From a virus: 39,492 bases of DNA. A program made the translations under genes and the position numbers. Every line of letters begins with the position of its first letter. The stretch's first letter is position 1. The stretch spans positions 1-39,492 of IMG/VR virus record IMGVR_UViG_3300010158_000154; one strand, written 5' to 3'. The notes beneath the pieces were generated by a model. That model was not told the DNA's origin. It saw nothing but the letters and a program-made list of their open reading frames with translations, and ran no database searches. Positions 26,702-32,053 of the stretch are shown piece after piece.

Positions 26702-26909
26702 ATGCGGATAGGGTAATTTTTAGATCAAGAACTTCAGCATACTTTAACGCCGTTGAAAACAACGTTGTGCCGATGTTACGCTTCCACCACCAATAAGCGC
26801 CAGGCGATTTCATACCGGCGCGGCGCGATAGTTCCCGTTCTGAAAACCCTTTTTCTACACGGGCGGCTTCGAGGGCCGCAAGTAAGGATTCCATGTTATC
26901 AATCTGCAT
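26700..26909 (-). CDS. Small HTH transcription regulator, 69 aa
   Basis: The helix-turn-helix pattern starts near residue 20 (EKGFSERELSRRAGM, then a GAYWWWKR recognition-like helix), as in Xre/Cro-type DNA-binding proteins. The C-terminus is a short helix and strand pair (ALKYAEVLDLKITL). The start is the ATG at 26909, which overlaps the DUF5664 stop by 11 nt; a more upstream ATG (26948) would overlap by 50 nt. It is a candidate for the operators at 36310-36346 or 38800-38824. Confidence 0.65.
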   Translation of the reverse strand: MQIDNMESLLAALEAARVEKGFSERELSRRAGMKSPGAYWWWKRNIGTTLFSTALKYAEVLDLKITLSA

Positions 26910-27231
26910 TGTCAGTCCCCGGCGTATGAGGGCGGTCATCTTGCCCAATTCCTCTGGTTTGATAAGCCGCCAAGAAGGCTAGGCAACATGCGGCATGATA
27001 CAAATGTGAGCAAGATGTTTCCTCGTCGTAATCTTCACCTGCCCACCACAAATTTAAGTGCCGCTGCAAAGCGGAGTAATACCGGCTCCAATCCGCACCG
27101 CGTGCCCAATTATTTGGAGCGTATTTTCTAGCGCCATATTCCAGAACTTCAGCCATGCCCCATAAAAATTCGGGTGGTATCAGATCAAAACGTGGTTTAT
27201 CCACATCGTTTTTTACAAAATTACTTTCCAT
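26899..27231 (-). CDS. dATP/dGTP diphosphohydrolase-like protein (DUF5664), 110 aa
   Basis: The sequence has the features of the all-alpha dATP/dGTP diphosphohydrolase N-terminal family (DUF5664): DKPRFDLIPPE, GARKYAPNNW, RYYSALQRHL and a C-terminal HLYHAACCLAFL. Such enzymes are related to MazG-type NTP pyrophosphatases and can reshape the dNTP pool. The start is the ATG at 27231 with AAGAAGG 8 nt upstream, overlapping the polymerase stop by 11 nt. Members occur in Z-genome (2-aminoadenine) phages, but no PurZ is present here. Specificity is unknown. Confidence 0.75.
   Translation of the reverse strand: MESNFVKNDVDKPRFDLIPPEFLWGMAEVLEYGARKYAPNNWARGADWSRYYSALQRHLNLWWAGEDYDEETSCSHLYHAACCLAFLAAYQTRGIGQDDRPHTPGTDNAD
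27197..27205 (+). promoter_or_regulatory. Perfect DnaA-box sequence
   Basis: TTATCCACA within the DUF5664 gene, one of three perfect copies in the replication region (27.2-31.0 kb). Confidence 0.35.
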
Positions 27232-29158
27232 ATCTAAAACCTTCTTTGGCTTCAGCGGCAATAGGAAAACCAGTCGCCCAATTTGGTATCCGGCACATTA
27301 TCTTTTTCATTTCCTCTTGAGTTCCAAATTTTTCAGGTAATTCGCAGATCACTTCATCGTGCACCGAGGCGATAACTCGGTAATCTGCTGCTTCTAACGC
27401 CATCATTGCTTCAGCGATAATATCTCGGCAAATCCCTTGCACAATATTCTCTGTCAGTTTTCCACCAAACGTCCGTTCTGGTCCCCATTTTTTTGTCATA
27501 GAGTTGACCGCCATATACTCGATAGCGGGTCTTGACCCAAACGGTCCGGCAAAAGAAACGATACGAGGCGAGCGATAAAACAATTTCCGTCCAGAAGGTA
27601 AACGGATTAAAAGCCAGTCGCCGTCAGAAAAGAACGACACACCTTGGTATTGCATCTCAATTCTAGGGTTCTGCACGGCGGATGTAGCTGCTTCATTTAG
27701 TTTATTCCACAACAACGGTATCTTCGAGTAATGCTCGCGATACGTGTTCACCGCTTTTTGCGCCAACTCTTCTGAAATATCCGTACCCATCGCCGCGCAG
27801 GATTGCCGAAATTTCTGCGCACCCATGCTATAGCCACAACCCAGAATAACTGTCTTTCCAAGGAAACGTTCTTTAGAGTCTTTGCCAATGTCCTGAGCCG
27901 AAACGTCAAAAATAGCGGCAGCCATTTCTTCGTAAACTTTACCGTTGTTGGCAAACTGGTTCACAAGGTTCTTCTGCCCCGCGAGCCAAGCTACGCCACG
28001 TGCTTCAATTGCGGCATAATCCGCCCAGATCAAACGGTGGTTAGGAGCGGCGCAAATCGTGCCACGAATCATTCTCGACAGTTGACCAAGTGTTTCTTTT
28101 GACACGGGGTGCAAATGGTCGCGGGACCAGTTCCAATCTTTGACCGTGTCTCGCGGAAGATTTTGCAACTGCACACCCGCACCCGACCACCTGCCAGTAC
28201 TCGCGCCGTGGTACATCAAATTCCCGCGTACCCGCCCGTCTGACGATACCCGGTCAACCATCGCCTGATATTTTGCAACGGATGATTTCCCGCCATCACG
28301 ACGAATTTTTAAAACTTCTTTTACATTGTGTGGCAGGTCTTGCTTCAACATATTCTCAATGGCTTTTTTATTAAGGCTTTCATCATCGCCTTCAAAAATA
28401 GAAAACCCTTGCGCCAGTAACCACTCTTTAAGCTGAAACATTTGACTCGCGCTTTTTACAGCGCCATTGGTCAGAACCTCTAAATTATGGTTTAAAACCC
28501 CCTGCGCCTCATTCGCGAGCGCGATTGCGTGTTGGGCAAAAGTATCGTCGATCCGAACACCACGATCATTCACCGCTTCGGTCAACCACCAAATCCTGCG
28601 TTCTTCATCAGACAACTGGCGTAATGTGTGGTCAAGTTCTCGCTCAACCTCTACGTCAGTGGCGCAGTACTCGGCGAGCCGTGTCATGCGGGTTTCGTCT
28701 TCCCACCATGTAATGCTTCCATCCGCCGCCACATTACGCGGACGGCACATGCGAAGCATCAACATCTTGCCTTCTTTATCTTTCAATACGTTTAGACCAA
28801 GAGCATCGGCAGCGCCTTCAAGAGAACGCGGTAGTGCTTGCCGTGCAGCCCTTGCCGCGGTATCGTCCCACCGGATCAATGCGGGCACAGGCCAGCCGTG
28901 CCGAGGACCAAGGATATACTCGAACATCGCCCGTTCGAATCCGGCGTTGTGCGCGACAACCGTTACTTTAGGATCGGCCAAAAGATCGGCCAAATCTTTC
29001 GGACATGGGTTCGGCGCAAACCAAGTTTTTACGGGTCCGTCATCCAACGCGTAACACGCCAAGATCACTTCGGTCGTTTGATCTTCGGCATAGCGGTACA
29101 CACCAGTCTTACGAAGATCGATGGTCGAACGAGTTTCAAAGTCAATATGAAGTCTCAT
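27221..29158 (-). CDS. DNA polymerase, family A, 645 aa
   Basis: This is the replicative DNA polymerase. The N-terminal 3'-5' exonuclease has D6 and E8 in HIDFETRS. The polymerase domain has motif A WADYAAIEARG, motif B as ERFLGKTVILGCGYSMG, and motif C SVHDEV near residue 600. This domain order is that of phage PolA-type enzymes without the 5' nuclease. The start is the ATG overlapping the methyltransferase stop (ATGA), with GGAG about 9 nt upstream; an ATG two codons earlier is possible. It is embedded in the modification and nucleotide cluster, so it will copy an altered template. Confidence 0.93.
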   Translation of the reverse strand: MRLHIDFETRSTIDLRKTGVYRYAEDQTTEVILACYALDDGPVKTWFAPNPCPKDLADLLADPKVTVVAHNAGFERAMFEYILGPRHGWPVPALIRWDDTAARAARQALPRSLEGAADALGLNVLKDKEGKMLMLRMCRPRNVAADGSITWWEDETRMTRLAEYCATDVEVERELDHTLRQLSDEERRIWWLTEAVNDRGVRIDDTFAQHAIALANEAQGVLNHNLEVLTNGAVKSASQMFQLKEWLLAQGFSIFEGDDESLNKKAIENMLKQDLPHNVKEVLKIRRDGGKSSVAKYQAMVDRVSSDGRVRGNLMYHGASTGRWSGAGVQLQNLPRDTVKDWNWSRDHLHPVSKETLGQLSRMIRGTICAAPNHRLIWADYAAIEARGVAWLAGQKNLVNQFANNGKVYEEMAAAIFDVSAQDIGKDSKERFLGKTVILGCGYSMGAQKFRQSCAAMGTDISEELAQKAVNTYREHYSKIPLLWNKLNEAATSAVQNPRIEMQYQGVSFFSDGDWLLIRLPSGRKLFYRSPRIVSFAGPFGSRPAIEYMAVNSMTKKWGPERTFGGKLTENIVQGICRDIIAEAMMALEAADYRVIASVHDEVICELPEKFGTQEEMKKIMCRIPNWATGFPIAAEAKEGFRYGK

Positions 29159-29745
29159 CCCCATTGCTCCGCCATAGCATTAGCAATCCCTTGAAAAGTT
29201 TTGCTTCTCAATTTCCAACGCTCTGCAGATGGTGGTAAATAATGCAATCTTTCTCTATCTCGTTTTGGTAATTCCATCATCTCATTTTTAACATTATGAG
29301 TAGGAACAAGCATAGAAAGATTTTTGAGCCAAAGACAAGTTGCTTTTTGCTCCATATGCCCAAACATCCAAGGTTGGATTACTTGAGTTTGTTTAATATT
29401 TCCAATACGATCTTTTGCATATTTGTGCATGATCGGATTTTCTACTGCTATTTTTGGTATATTTGCGTTTAACAACATTTTAAAAAAAGATGCGCCGTCA
29501 TCTAATTTATCCCATCGTGACGGGTCTTTATGAAGCCAAGTTACTCCGCTATTGGTAAGAAACGTGCAAGGGGGATGCGCTATCATCATATCCCAACCAT
29601 CGTTAATAATATCAAGCACATCCCCCTGATAATGCTTACCTGGTTTATCAGTAGGCAAAATATCGCAGGATGTTGCATCGTGGCCTTTAGCGGTAAAAGC
29701 ATCACGTACTGTTCCACTGTATTCACAAGCTATTAAAATACGCAT
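29155..29745 (-). CDS. DNA C5-cytosine methyltransferase-like protein, 196 aa
   Basis: The first third matches C5-methyltransferases: ACEYSGTVRDAF as the SAM site, a catalytic-type HPPC motif near residue 60, and an ENP motif (motif VI). The C-terminal TFQGIANAMA resembles the last helix of this fold. At 196 aa it lacks a full target-recognition domain. The ATG at 29745 is chosen; a TTG five codons upstream is less likely. It is coupled to the polymerase by ATGA and follows the transglycosylase by 5 nt, so it could methylate the phage genome or act on the modified base. Confidence 0.65.
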   Translation of the reverse strand: MRILIACEYSGTVRDAFTAKGHDATSCDILPTDKPGKHYQGDVLDIINDGWDMMIAHPPCTFLTNSGVTWLHKDPSRWDKLDDGASFFKMLLNANIPKIAVENPIMHKYAKDRIGNIKQTQVIQPWMFGHMEQKATCLWLKNLSMLVPTHNVKNEMMELPKRDRERLHYLPPSAERWKLRSKTFQGIANAMAEQWG

Positions 29746-29750
29746 AATAA

Positions 29751-29759
29751 TTATCCACA
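29751..29759 (+). promoter_or_regulatory. Perfect DnaA-box sequence
   Basis: TTATCCACA overlapping the transglycosylase stop codon. One of three perfect copies clustered in the replication region. Confidence 0.35.
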
Positions 29760-30449
29760 AATAAGTTTTCCGTATGGTGTATAAAATTCATTTGGGTTTA
29801 TCCAAAACGGTGGTGATTGGATAATATCGATTTCATCAGACATTTTTCTTGGGCATTTTTCCACTGATTTAAAATTACGCGCAACGTTAACGCTATCCGC
29901 GCTGGCGAATGGCCATCTTTTCCCAACAACAGCTAGACCGCGAAGCATGTGTATCCAAGGCAAATGCCGGTGTCTTTTTGACAATGCTTCAAAAGCTGCT
30001 TCGCATCGGCCGTTCCATTCATCTGAACCTACTCGCCAATATTCGGCAGAAGATCCGAAACAAATGCGTGGGTAAGTATCCGCAAGTTCCAACAAATATT
30101 CTATCGGTAAACCCATATGCCAAACAGGAGAAGATAATTCTTTTGGAAAAGGCCATTGTTTTAACAACTCTCGTTGCTGATCCGCATCGCCACCAATAAC
30201 GTCGAGGCATACCGCCCAATGTGGATGGCAAAGACGATCTTCAAGCCATGCATAAAGTCGATCAACGTCGATTGATTTTCCTTTAGTAAAGTTAGAAAAC
30301 GCACCGTTGTCCCACATAATCGATTGCGCGTTGTGTACGCACCAATCTGCATCGGCGGGGTGGGCAAAGCTGACACAGAAATTTTTTCCAGCCAACTTTG
30401 TTAATTCACGCCGTGGTGTAAGGGGAGTTCCATGATAATGAATAGTCAT
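29751..30449 (-). CDS. dpdA: DpdA-like DNA 7-deazaguanine transglycosylase, 232 aa
   Basis: This protein would exchange a guanine in DNA for a 7-deazaguanine base. It shows the TIM-barrel TGT pattern: MWDNGAFSNF aligns with the general-acid DSGGFQ motif (D47), and SADSVNVARN (D185) aligns with the nucleophile region, preceded by GLAVVGKRWPF as in DpdA proteins. It is shorter than tRNA TGT enzymes, as expected for phage DpdA. The start is the ATG at 30449 in an ATGA overlap with the transporter gene, with AGGA 8 nt upstream. The coupled transporter and methyltransferase support a DNA-modification role. The symbol is tentative. Confidence 0.75.
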   Translation of the reverse strand: MTIHYHGTPLTPRRELTKLAGKNFCVSFAHPADADWCVHNAQSIMWDNGAFSNFTKGKSIDVDRLYAWLEDRLCHPHWAVCLDVIGGDADQQRELLKQWPFPKELSSPVWHMGLPIEYLLELADTYPRICFGSSAEYWRVGSDEWNGRCEAAFEALSKRHRHLPWIHMLRGLAVVGKRWPFASADSVNVARNFKSVEKCPRKMSDEIDIIQSPPFWINPNEFYTPYGKLICG

Positions 30450-30970
30450 ATTTTTTTCCTGTAATAAGAAATAATCGACATTACGCTTACGGCAAAAATA
30501 ATAGCCCAAATTTTTCCTATAATTTGGCCCGTTAAAAAATCCAAAGAGCCAAAAGCAAACCAAAGGAAAGCCGCGCTATCAATTACTGAGCCAACAACGG
30601 AACTCGCAATTACCGCAAGAATAAACCCGCGCCGACGAAGGGGGGTGTAAATAGCAAAATCTGCAAGTTCGGAAAGCGTAAACGCCACCGTGCTGGCGAA
30701 AGCCAACGCCGGGTGCGCAATAAAAAACGACACTGCTGCACCGGCTGCTACGCAGGTCAAAGACCAAATCGGTCCTTTTTCGCGTTGGACAAGATCGCGC
30801 AAAACAAGAGCAAATCCAATCATCAATACACCGCTCGGCGCAGTGAGTCCCAGTCCAACCGGAACCAAACAAGGTCCGTTTGGAACGCAAAAAGTTCCTA
30901 TGTTTTCGATTAGCCAATTAGCGACGGGTATTGTCGCAATATAAGAAAAAGTTAAAAGATACGGTAGCAC
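30446..30970 (-). CDS. Queuosine-precursor transporter (VUT/YhhQ family), 174 aa
   Basis: This inner-membrane importer of preQ0/preQ1 has about six hydrophobic segments and the family motifs APSGVLMIGFALVLRD and ELADFAIYTPLRRRG. It is shorter than typical YhhQ (about 220 aa), like the shortened phage forms. The start is GTG at 30970 with GGAG about 8 nt upstream, and the stop overlaps the transglycosylase ATG (ATGA). With no queC, queD, queE or queF in the window, the transporter points to salvage of a host or environmental precursor. A terminator separates it from the ssDNA-binding gene. Confidence 0.85.
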   Translation of the reverse strand: MLPYLLTFSYIATIPVANWLIENIGTFCVPNGPCLVPVGLGLTAPSGVLMIGFALVLRDLVQREKGPIWSLTCVAAGAAVSFFIAHPALAFASTVAFTLSELADFAIYTPLRRRGFILAVIASSVVGSVIDSAAFLWFAFGSLDFLTGQIIGKIWAIIFAVSVMSIISYYRKKI

Positions 30971-30986
30971 GTTTTATTCTCCAAAG

Positions 30987-30995
30987 TTATCCACA
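30987..30995 (+). promoter_or_regulatory. Perfect DnaA-box sequence in an intergenic region
   Basis: TTATCCACA just upstream of the transporter start and beside the terminator. This is the best placed of the five copies for a real regulatory or origin role. Confidence 0.4.
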
Positions 30996-30997
30996 GG

Positions 30998-31025
30998 AAA
31001 AGGTGGGGCGGCACAAAGCCGCCCC
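30998..31025 (-). terminator. Rho-independent terminator after the ssDNA-binding gene
   Basis: A perfect 8-bp stem GGGGCGGC (31005-31012) / GCCGCCCC (31018-31025) with a 5-nt loop is followed on the - strand by ACCTTTT. It should stop or reduce transcription before the modification cassette, so yhhQ may have its own promoter or depend on read-through. Confidence 0.75.
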
Positions 31026-31033
31026 TTCGGGCA

Positions 31034-31609
31034 TCAATCGTCCCATGTCGAGTCGAGGCTAATGCCCGAACCCGAACCTGATGGAGCAGCGCCAAGTTCT
31101 TCAGCAATGACATCAAAGTCATCCTGCGCCCGACCCGCGCCGGAGAAGGCGGAATCGTGCTTGAGCAACTGCACGTTCTGTAAACCGAATCCTACGCCTT
31201 TGAGCACGTTATCATATGCAAACGCTCTCGCGGTTACACGGCACCAACGCCCTGCGTACGCTTCTTTCTCGTCCGTAACGGGATCAGTCGCCGCGTTCAC
31301 GCAACCAGGCTGAGACTTCGACTTAAGCGAGATAAACTTCCAACCCGCCTCATAACCTGCCAGATGCGCTTTGTCTTCCGCAGAACGAATTACCTGCTTC
31401 GGACCATTAAAGTTACCCTTAGGCCATTTTGCTTTATCTGGTCCCCACTTTTCGATGGCAACTTCTTCAAGTGCTTTTACCAACGGCTTCGTATCATAGT
31501 CGGGTGGCAACAGGATCGTAATCCCGTATTTGCCGCCCATGTCTTCGCGCTGCGGGTGAAAGATTGCAGGAAACGAAAGCCGACCCGGTCCAATAGTAAT
31601 CTTCGTCAT
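31034..31609 (-). CDS. Single-stranded DNA-binding protein, DUF2815 family, 191 aa
   Basis: The sequence (TKITIGPGRLSFPAIF, YGITILLP, WGPDKAKWPKGN) is characteristic of DUF2815, the phage ssDNA-binding family. The C-terminus is acidic and Gly/Ser-rich, as in SSB tails that recruit partners. GGAG stands 8 nt before the ATG. The usual order helicase, DUF2800 nuclease, DUF2815, polymerase is kept here. It should coat single strands during replication or recombination. Confidence 0.85.
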   Translation of the reverse strand: MTKITIGPGRLSFPAIFHPQREDMGGKYGITILLPPDYDTKPLVKALEEVAIEKWGPDKAKWPKGNFNGPKQVIRSAEDKAHLAGYEAGWKFISLKSKSQPGCVNAATDPVTDEKEAYAGRWCRVTARAFAYDNVLKGVGFGLQNVQLLKHDSAFSGAGRAQDDFDVIAEELGAAPSGSGSGISLDSTWDD

Positions 31610-31654
31610 TGTACTGCTCCATAAATAAATTCGATAGTCATGCTGTTTTACCTT

Positions 31655-32053
31655 TTAGTCCGCGAAGTCTAATTTGGCGGATGCAGTCGCGGAAACCTGC
31701 TTGTCCGTCTCGCGGGTCAAATTAACCCCCGTACTTTCAGAAGTGATGAGATCAAATAAATCAAACTGTAACCCTTGCTTCTTCGCCAGCTTCTCGACTT
31801 GTGACGGCGACAATAAATCTTCCGTTACAAAACCCGATAGTCCTTCCGAAGCAAGACGCTGTTTAACAATCCTCTCATCTTTCCATTTTCGTGTGCCGCG
31901 CTTCGGCACCAATTTCCAACCGGGCACGGTATCGCCCGCTTCAATTAACTCTTGTGCATAAGCACGGACTGCCTTCAGCCAAGTCTCAATCACATCGGCT
32001 TTATCAAGCAGTTCGGCTATGTAGTCATTCGACAAACTTTCAGGCGACTGCAT
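31655..32053 (-). CDS. C-terminal half of a DUF2800 nuclease, encoded as a separate gene, 132 aa
   Basis: The sequence (LDKADVIETWLKAVRAYAQELIEAG, here in parts, then WKLVPKRGTRKW) is what follows the nuclease domain in intact DUF2800 proteins. Here it begins at its own ATG, 14 nt inside the end of the preceding gene and in another frame, with AAGGA 9-10 nt upstream. It may bind the N-terminal half to restore the full protein. Confidence 0.7.
   Translation of the reverse strand: MQSPESLSNDYIAELLDKADVIETWLKAVRAYAQELIEAGDTVPGWKLVPKRGTRKWKDERIVKQRLASEGLSGFVTEDLLSPSQVEKLAKKQGLQFDLFDLITSESTGVNLTRETDKQVSATASAKLDFAD

Follow-up and report, generated by a model that had tools for sequence, protein, structure and literature searches.

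A candidate two-gene salvage module for 7-deazaguanine DNA modification, a VUT-type transporter and a short DpdA-like transglycosylase, in an IMG/VR virus

Introduction

Could a phage that encodes no 7-deazaguanine biosynthesis enzyme still place such a base in its DNA? The question is raised by IMG/VR virus record IMGVR_UViG_3300010158_000154, the whole of which (39,492 nucleotides, hereafter the window) we analysed. Three minus-strand open reading frames (ORFs) between the genes for a single-stranded DNA-binding protein (SSB) and a DNA polymerase encode a VUT/YhhQ-type membrane protein, a DpdA-like transglycosylase and a methyltransferase-like protein. An original prediction, made from the DNA letters, had described them as one compact modification cassette. 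The ORFs and the PF02592 and PHROG matches confirmed the existence and the location of all three genes, but we reached a different view of how they belong together. We consider it likely that the transporter and the transglycosylase form a mobile two-gene salvage module for 7-deazaguanine DNA modification. The features of this pair are as follows.

30446-30970, minus strand: VUT/YhhQ-type membrane protein, putative preQ0/preQ1 importer, 174 aa (PF02592, PHROG 4899, linkage)
29751-30449, minus strand: short DpdA-like transglycosylase, alpha/beta barrel of the tRNA-guanine transglycosylase (TGT) type with D47/D83/D185, 232 aa (PHROG 887, model)
30446-30449, minus strand: ATGA overlap coupling the VUT stop to the DpdA start (sequence)

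Results

Linkage of VUT and DpdA

Scanning the DpdA-like protein against 2.9 million viral contigs yielded 68 loci of uncultured viruses; as background we took from these contigs 80 loci that carry the methyltransferase-like gene. A VUT gene was found near the DpdA-like gene in 64 of the 68 loci, mostly adjacent or overlapping and in either order, but in none of the 80 background loci (Fisher value 1e-37, indicative only since many rows are near-copies). The VUT-DpdA linkage is far above chance, whereas that of the methyltransferase-like gene is not, and the predicted pairing of an importer with a TGT/DpdA-like protein was thus borne out. The association spans deep branches in a tree of 87 distinct DpdA sequences. 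The four loci without VUT comprise two truncated at the contig start (L067, L069), one with QueD (L066) and one with a small QueF-like ORF (L038).

VUT precedes DpdA in 57 loci and follows it in 7, the latter order being commoner in prophages, and the tree forces at least five changes of the DpdA-first state. Such repeated changes are expected if function, rather than one frozen arrangement, keeps both genes adjacent. ATGA-type overlaps between the two genes recur in L014, L018, L033, L059, L063, L065 and phage Sadiya. In the reverse direction, a single query with the window VUT recovered two loci, both with an adjoining TGT-like gene. VUT also adjoins TGT-like genes of two other families. In Sinorhizobium phage phiLM21 the neighbour belongs to PHROG 1279; in mycobacteriophage Bhagsy, Rhodococcus phage ReqiPine5, Arthrobacter phage Aoka and contig L216 it belongs to PHROG 15826.

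In some loci the partners are enzymes of the biosynthetic pathway. QueD adjoins DpdA in L066 and in the Bradyrhizobium prophage L158 (PF01242, 1e-28 and 8e-31), and a related, unconfirmed QueD copy in another frame seems present in L160. QueC (PF06508, 2e-42) lies between VUT and DpdA in L023 (5456-6004), as do near-identical ORFs in L030 (949-1497), L034 (2823-3371) and L074 (5453-6001); by this insertion the module, otherwise of the salvage type, acquires a single biosynthesis step. An ORF resembling 6-pyruvoyl-tetrahydropterin synthase (PTPS) precedes DpdA in Caulobacter phage DMCA. Together with the other TGT-like partners of VUT, the QueD and QueC swaps place the pair in 7-deazaguanine metabolism.

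Several small ORFs were also observed within the pair. A conserved ORF of 77-96 aa (PHROG 37496) separates VUT and DpdA in nine loci (L008 5753-6004, L015 5747-6004, L016 5759-6001, L017 5714-6004, L027 5744-6001, L035 6711-6956, L038 4861-5103, L166 1501-1746 and L001 3771-4004). Its conserved positions (Y, C-P, Y, E, [HQ]-E and H) resemble those of QueF, and it could be a miniature QueF-like T-fold protein, with an hhalign E of 0.0075 and a probability of 5% against QueF; if so, it would hint at preQ0-to-preQ1 chemistry. Arthrobacter phage Aoka carries between VUT and DpdA a 109-aa ORF annotated as hypothetical (gp39; L218 2932-3261), which passes the Pfam QueF cut-off (29.6 bits vs 27.3) and has a QueF-type C-x6-D and HE. 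In an Agrobacterium prophage (L156 6689-6934, with a weak PHROG 9572 match) and in Pseudanabaena phage Pam5 (L002 4681-4941), a second, different small ORF separates DpdA from VUT.

The transporter

The window VUT matched Pfam PF02592 (Vut_1) with 39.1 bits, above the curated cut-off of 27.2, and PHROG 4899 (4e-37). Its match to TIGR00697 (5e-8, 32.9 bits) was under the cut-off of 50.95, so that the equivalog level was not reached, and that to PRK11212, a queuosine-precursor transporter model, was also under cut-off. The ORF starts with GTG, with a GGAG Shine-Dalgarno sequence 8 nt upstream. E. coli YhhQ is required for the use of externally supplied preQ0/preQ1 (PMC5372724), and we regard the window VUT as a putative importer of the same type. 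No gene for QueD, QueC, QueF, FolE or a radical S-adenosylmethionine enzyme of the QueE type was found in the whole record, in agreement with the predicted lack of biosynthesis genes. The accompanying suggestion that the base must come from host pools misses the likely role of the transporter, as YhhQ serves preQ0/preQ1 supplied from outside. An Rfam scan of the window gave zero matches to any family, the preQ1 riboswitch included.

The DpdA-like enzyme

The 232-aa protein matched PHROG 887, named "queuine tRNA-ribosyltransferase", at 9e-42. It had no Pfam family above cut-off, PF01702 (bacterial TGT) being unmatched at E up to 1, and its family gave nothing significant against PDB sequences. 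The DNGAF and ADSVN motifs singled out in the original prediction are present: D47-N48-G49, D83, H111, G132 and D185 do not vary among 27 divergent members, including the DpdA of Pantoea phage MED16. No conserved Cys/His cluster corresponding to the C-terminal zinc site of bacterial TGT (three Cys and one His) was seen in an alignment of 33 sequences.

The AlphaFold model, built from 33 aligned sequences, is an alpha/beta barrel (predicted local distance difference test, pLDDT, 84; predicted template modelling score, pTM, 0.82). In Foldseek, the best matches among viral models were phage queuine tRNA-ribosyltransferases (probability 1.00); matches in the PDB were weak, the best being PdxJ (E 0.046). 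VIA-align placed Cap10 (9NTN) on top (Z 14.3 over 216 residues), with TGT at Z 12-13 and the DpdA structure 7UI4 at Z 11.8.

A family hidden Markov model (HMM) recovered MED16 DpdA with 197 bits and gp032 of Salmonella phage 7-11 with 147 bits, and MED16 DpdA also belongs to PHROG 887. At the sequence level, the homology of the window protein to DpdA of phages with measured modification is therefore clear. Published HHpred results relate MED16 DpdA to Thermotoga maritima TGT (E 1e-9). Direct comparison with TGT gave no significant match, so the kinship with TGT rests on the PHROG assignment, the fold, the motifs and this published comparison for a homologue.

Published LC-MS data are available for two members of the family, those of 7-11 and MED16. 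The DNA of phage 7-11 contains 50 residues per million nucleotides of dADG, the deoxynucleoside of 7-amido-7-deazaguanine (ADG) (PMC6884629), and that of MED16 contains 354 per million, about 0.13% of G (PMC8306585). The closest measured chemistry thus predicts sparse dADG and not wholesale replacement of guanine. The MED16 authors reported no noticeable effect of dADG on the restriction enzymes tested (PMC8306585), and the restriction resistance invoked in the original prediction was accordingly overstated. A sparse, site-specific mark could instead have a role in packaging or regulation, or could help the phage to escape particular defences.

The methyltransferase-like neighbour

The third ORF begins 5 nt past the DpdA-like ORF, and both this gap and the VUT/DpdA overlap had been correctly described; the further ATGA overlap with the polymerase gene exists only if the polymerase uses its second ATG. 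The remaining features of the region are the following.

29155-29745, minus strand: C5-methyltransferase-like protein, 196 aa (PHROG 757, fold), judged to lie outside the salvage module
31034-31609, minus strand: Gp2.5/Enc34-type SSB, flanking the three-ORF block
27221-29164, minus strand: family-A DNA polymerase, the other flank of the block
29165-31033, no strand: accessory block from SSB to DNA polymerase, absent at the same site in close relatives

The identification of the third ORF as an HPPC/ENP C5-methyltransferase-like protein stood up, since PHROG 757 ("DNA methyltransferase", 5e-59), the motifs and the fold agree. All of 22 relatives share C60 of HPPC and E102-N103-P104, and the model, with a Rossmann core and the PPC and ENP motifs, matches the C5-cytosine methyltransferases M.HaeIII and DNMT3. 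The 196 residues align end to end with larger enzymes (M.HaeIII, 324 aa), and no separate target-recognition domain was evident.

Phages commonly carry this family, which was matched in 150 GenBank phage records and 506 viral-contig stretches. Only one of the 68 DpdA loci has a member nearby (L035, about 1.8 kb between the genes), and the predicted VUT-DpdA-methyltransferase triplet was thus not recovered as a recurring arrangement. The phages of other VUT-TGT pairs carry unrelated methyltransferases (PHROG 799). We rejected the three-gene cassette on this count and on these different families; the protein is probably a separate, orphan enzyme of the 5-methylcytosine (m5C) type and an unrelated neighbour of the pair. 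Among the 80 methyltransferase loci, L086 had the only DpdA-type match, a more distant DpdA-like protein (1108-1788, 60 bits) about 4 kb from the methyltransferase-like gene.

Accessory insertion and hosts

The window carries a 123-nt direct terminal repeat at its ends and is therefore probably a complete phage genome of about 39.4 kb. No near-identical phage was found in GenBank. Five contigs (L210-L214) encode polymerases 71-92% identical to that of the window. The SSB gene is directly followed by the polymerase gene in L210, L211 and L212, and one unrelated ORF separates them in L214; L213 leaves the junction uncovered. VUT, the DpdA-like gene and the methyltransferase-like gene were all missing from the junction in the four relatives that cover it, which marks them as accessory cargo in the window phage. 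Their GC contents are 0.386 (methyltransferase-like), 0.436 (DpdA) and 0.453 (VUT), with flanks of about 0.50.

The closest prophage relatives are in Alphaproteobacteria. We surveyed 21 bacterial genomes carrying relatives of this protein. Full-length QueC was absent from 3 of 7 hosts with a VUT-bearing locus vs 0 of 14 without VUT (p 0.026), a contrast that is only suggestive because one of the three comes from a fragmented assembly of a metagenome and the hosts belong to related lineages. TGT was matched in all 21 genomes (in G046 by fragments only), which indicates that the phage enzyme does not supply a tRNA function that the hosts lack.

Discussion

Proposed mechanism

We infer the transport substrate, the DNA target, ADG as the base and a benefit to the phage along the following lines. 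During infection, VUT would reside in the host inner membrane and bring in external preQ0, preQ1 or a related base of the queuosine pathway. The DpdA-like enzyme would exchange selected DNA guanines for the imported base or a derivative such as ADG, by the kind of base exchange that TGT-superfamily enzymes carry out with two aspartates, and the inserted 7-deazaguanine would remain sparse. The module would be carried as cargo at the SSB/DNA-polymerase junction. With import from outside, the phage would need no FolE, QueD, QueE or QueC of its own and would be independent of base synthesis by the host.

Several observations weigh against this proposal. The profile comparison of the DpdA-like family with bacterial and host TGT was not significant. 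In VIA-align, PdxJ (Z 13.4) and epimerases (about 12) scored as high as TGT, so that the fold alone does not prove TGT kinship; of the predicted TGT fold, the barrel and the matches to TGT and 7UI4 were obtained but did not stand apart from these other barrels. Phages 7-11 and MED16 contain very little dADG, no dpdA deletion has been published for MED16, and the host may be the source of the mark in both. Phages RHph_X3_2 and Erebus carry a VUT with no TGT-like gene next to it, although weak DpdA-family matches lie elsewhere in their genomes. Finally, most hosts examined have QueC, and import is not strictly needed there.

Alternative explanations

The pair might modify host or phage tRNA instead of DNA and so tune translation during infection. 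The ancestral substrate of the TGT superfamily is tRNA, bacterial VUT serves tRNA queuosine (PMC5372724), and the very name of PHROG 887 points to tRNA. Yet the host genomes already have their own TGT match, the 232-aa protein has nothing that corresponds to the zinc-site region at the C-terminus of bacterial TGT, and phage relatives carry the mark in DNA (PMC6884629, PMC8306585); we therefore find a tRNA role unlikely. That the enzyme is instead Cap10-like, binding or attaching 7-amido-7-deazaguanine on a protein and perhaps blocking defence, would agree with the top rank of Cap10 in VIA-align and with the QueC-family protein of some loci, as Cap9 in the type IV cyclic-oligonucleotide-based antiphage signalling system (CBASS; PMC11996544). 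However, TGT and PdxJ trail Cap10 by Z differences of 1-2.5, too small to decide the matter, no target protein is linked, and by sequence the nearest proteins are DpdAs from phages whose DNA carries dADG, all of which makes this explanation highly improbable. A broader variant, in which a phage counterpart of Cap10 places salvaged 7-amido-7-deazaguanine on protein or tRNA rather than in bulk DNA and VUT draws the base from the surroundings, appears to us an outside chance.

A single system in which either the inserted base or cytosine is the substrate of the methyltransferase could account for the tight packing of the three genes, for their joint absence from close relatives and for the presence of the same methyltransferase family 2.4 kb away from DpdA in L035. 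The rarity of that association, the unrelated methyltransferases accompanying other pairs and the lower GC content of this gene make it very unlikely. Least probable is that the 232-aa protein is an unrelated alpha/beta-barrel enzyme wrongly labelled DpdA, as could be argued from PdxJ and ribulose-phosphate epimerases among the best fold matches and from the missing direct sequence match to TGT. The five residues invariant in the divergent members, the swaps with QueD and QueC, the phage queuine tRNA-ribosyltransferases as best viral-model matches and the HHpred result for MED16 DpdA all argue otherwise. DNA modification by a salvage pair thus remains our preferred reading.

Comparison with known systems

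By HMM, the window enzyme belongs to the same family as the "singleton" phage DpdAs, the third group of Hutinet et al. (2019), represented by 7-11 and also by MED16. These phages likewise lack preQ0 biosynthesis genes, but they have no VUT beside DpdA, whereas the window enzyme is paired with its own. Pantoea phage Vid5 also encodes a VUT (Vut_1), for which a preQ0 salvage hypothesis has been published (PMC6266253); in contrast to the window, it has a biosynthesis cluster, with 7.55% dG+ (PMC8306585). In the actinophages Bhagsy (gp54-55), Aoka (gp38-40) and ReqiPine5 (gp04-03), VUT adjoins a "DpdA-like tRNA-guanine transglycosylase" as in the window, although that transglycosylase is only a marginal match to the window family HMM. 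DpdA of the bacterial dpd islands (dpdA-K), the DNA preQ0 insertase of 7UI4, is also a 7-deazaguanine DNA transglycosylase, but the protein is longer (413 residues in 7UI4) and acts together with DpdB/DpdC, neither of which was seen in the window; about 9% of these islands carry YhhQ (PMC11888242). Cap10 of type IV CBASS has the TGT-family fold in common with the window enzyme model, but at 326 residues in 9NTN it is also the larger protein, and its ligand is a protein with a deazaguanylated N-terminus (PMC11996544); no CBASS genes were seen in the window.

Earlier publications already describe DpdA in the absence of biosynthesis genes, VUT proteins of phages and the idea of salvage. The near-obligate VUT-DpdA pairing, its rearrangements and the QueD/QueC swaps were not found in the searchable literature, whose coverage is incomplete, and the 2019 survey reported YhhQ as uncorrelated with any phage group. 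For one subclade, a near-fixed pair of importer and transglycosylase, with QueD replacing the importer and QueC sometimes added, offers a concrete and testable answer. If the proposal is true, DNA modification in these phages would depend on external preQ0/preQ1 and hence on the microbial community around the host. The two-gene system is small enough for transplantation into laboratory E. coli.

Other features of the window

An ORF of 58-64 aa lies just upstream of SSB in relatives (L210 4213-4389, L211 406-591) and is missing from the window (31609-31655). After the DNA polymerase gene, positions 26899-27261 encode a protein with a dATP/dGTP diphosphohydrolase N-terminal domain (PF18909, 120 bits), and this nucleotide-pool gene is also present in relatives without the VUT-DpdA pair.

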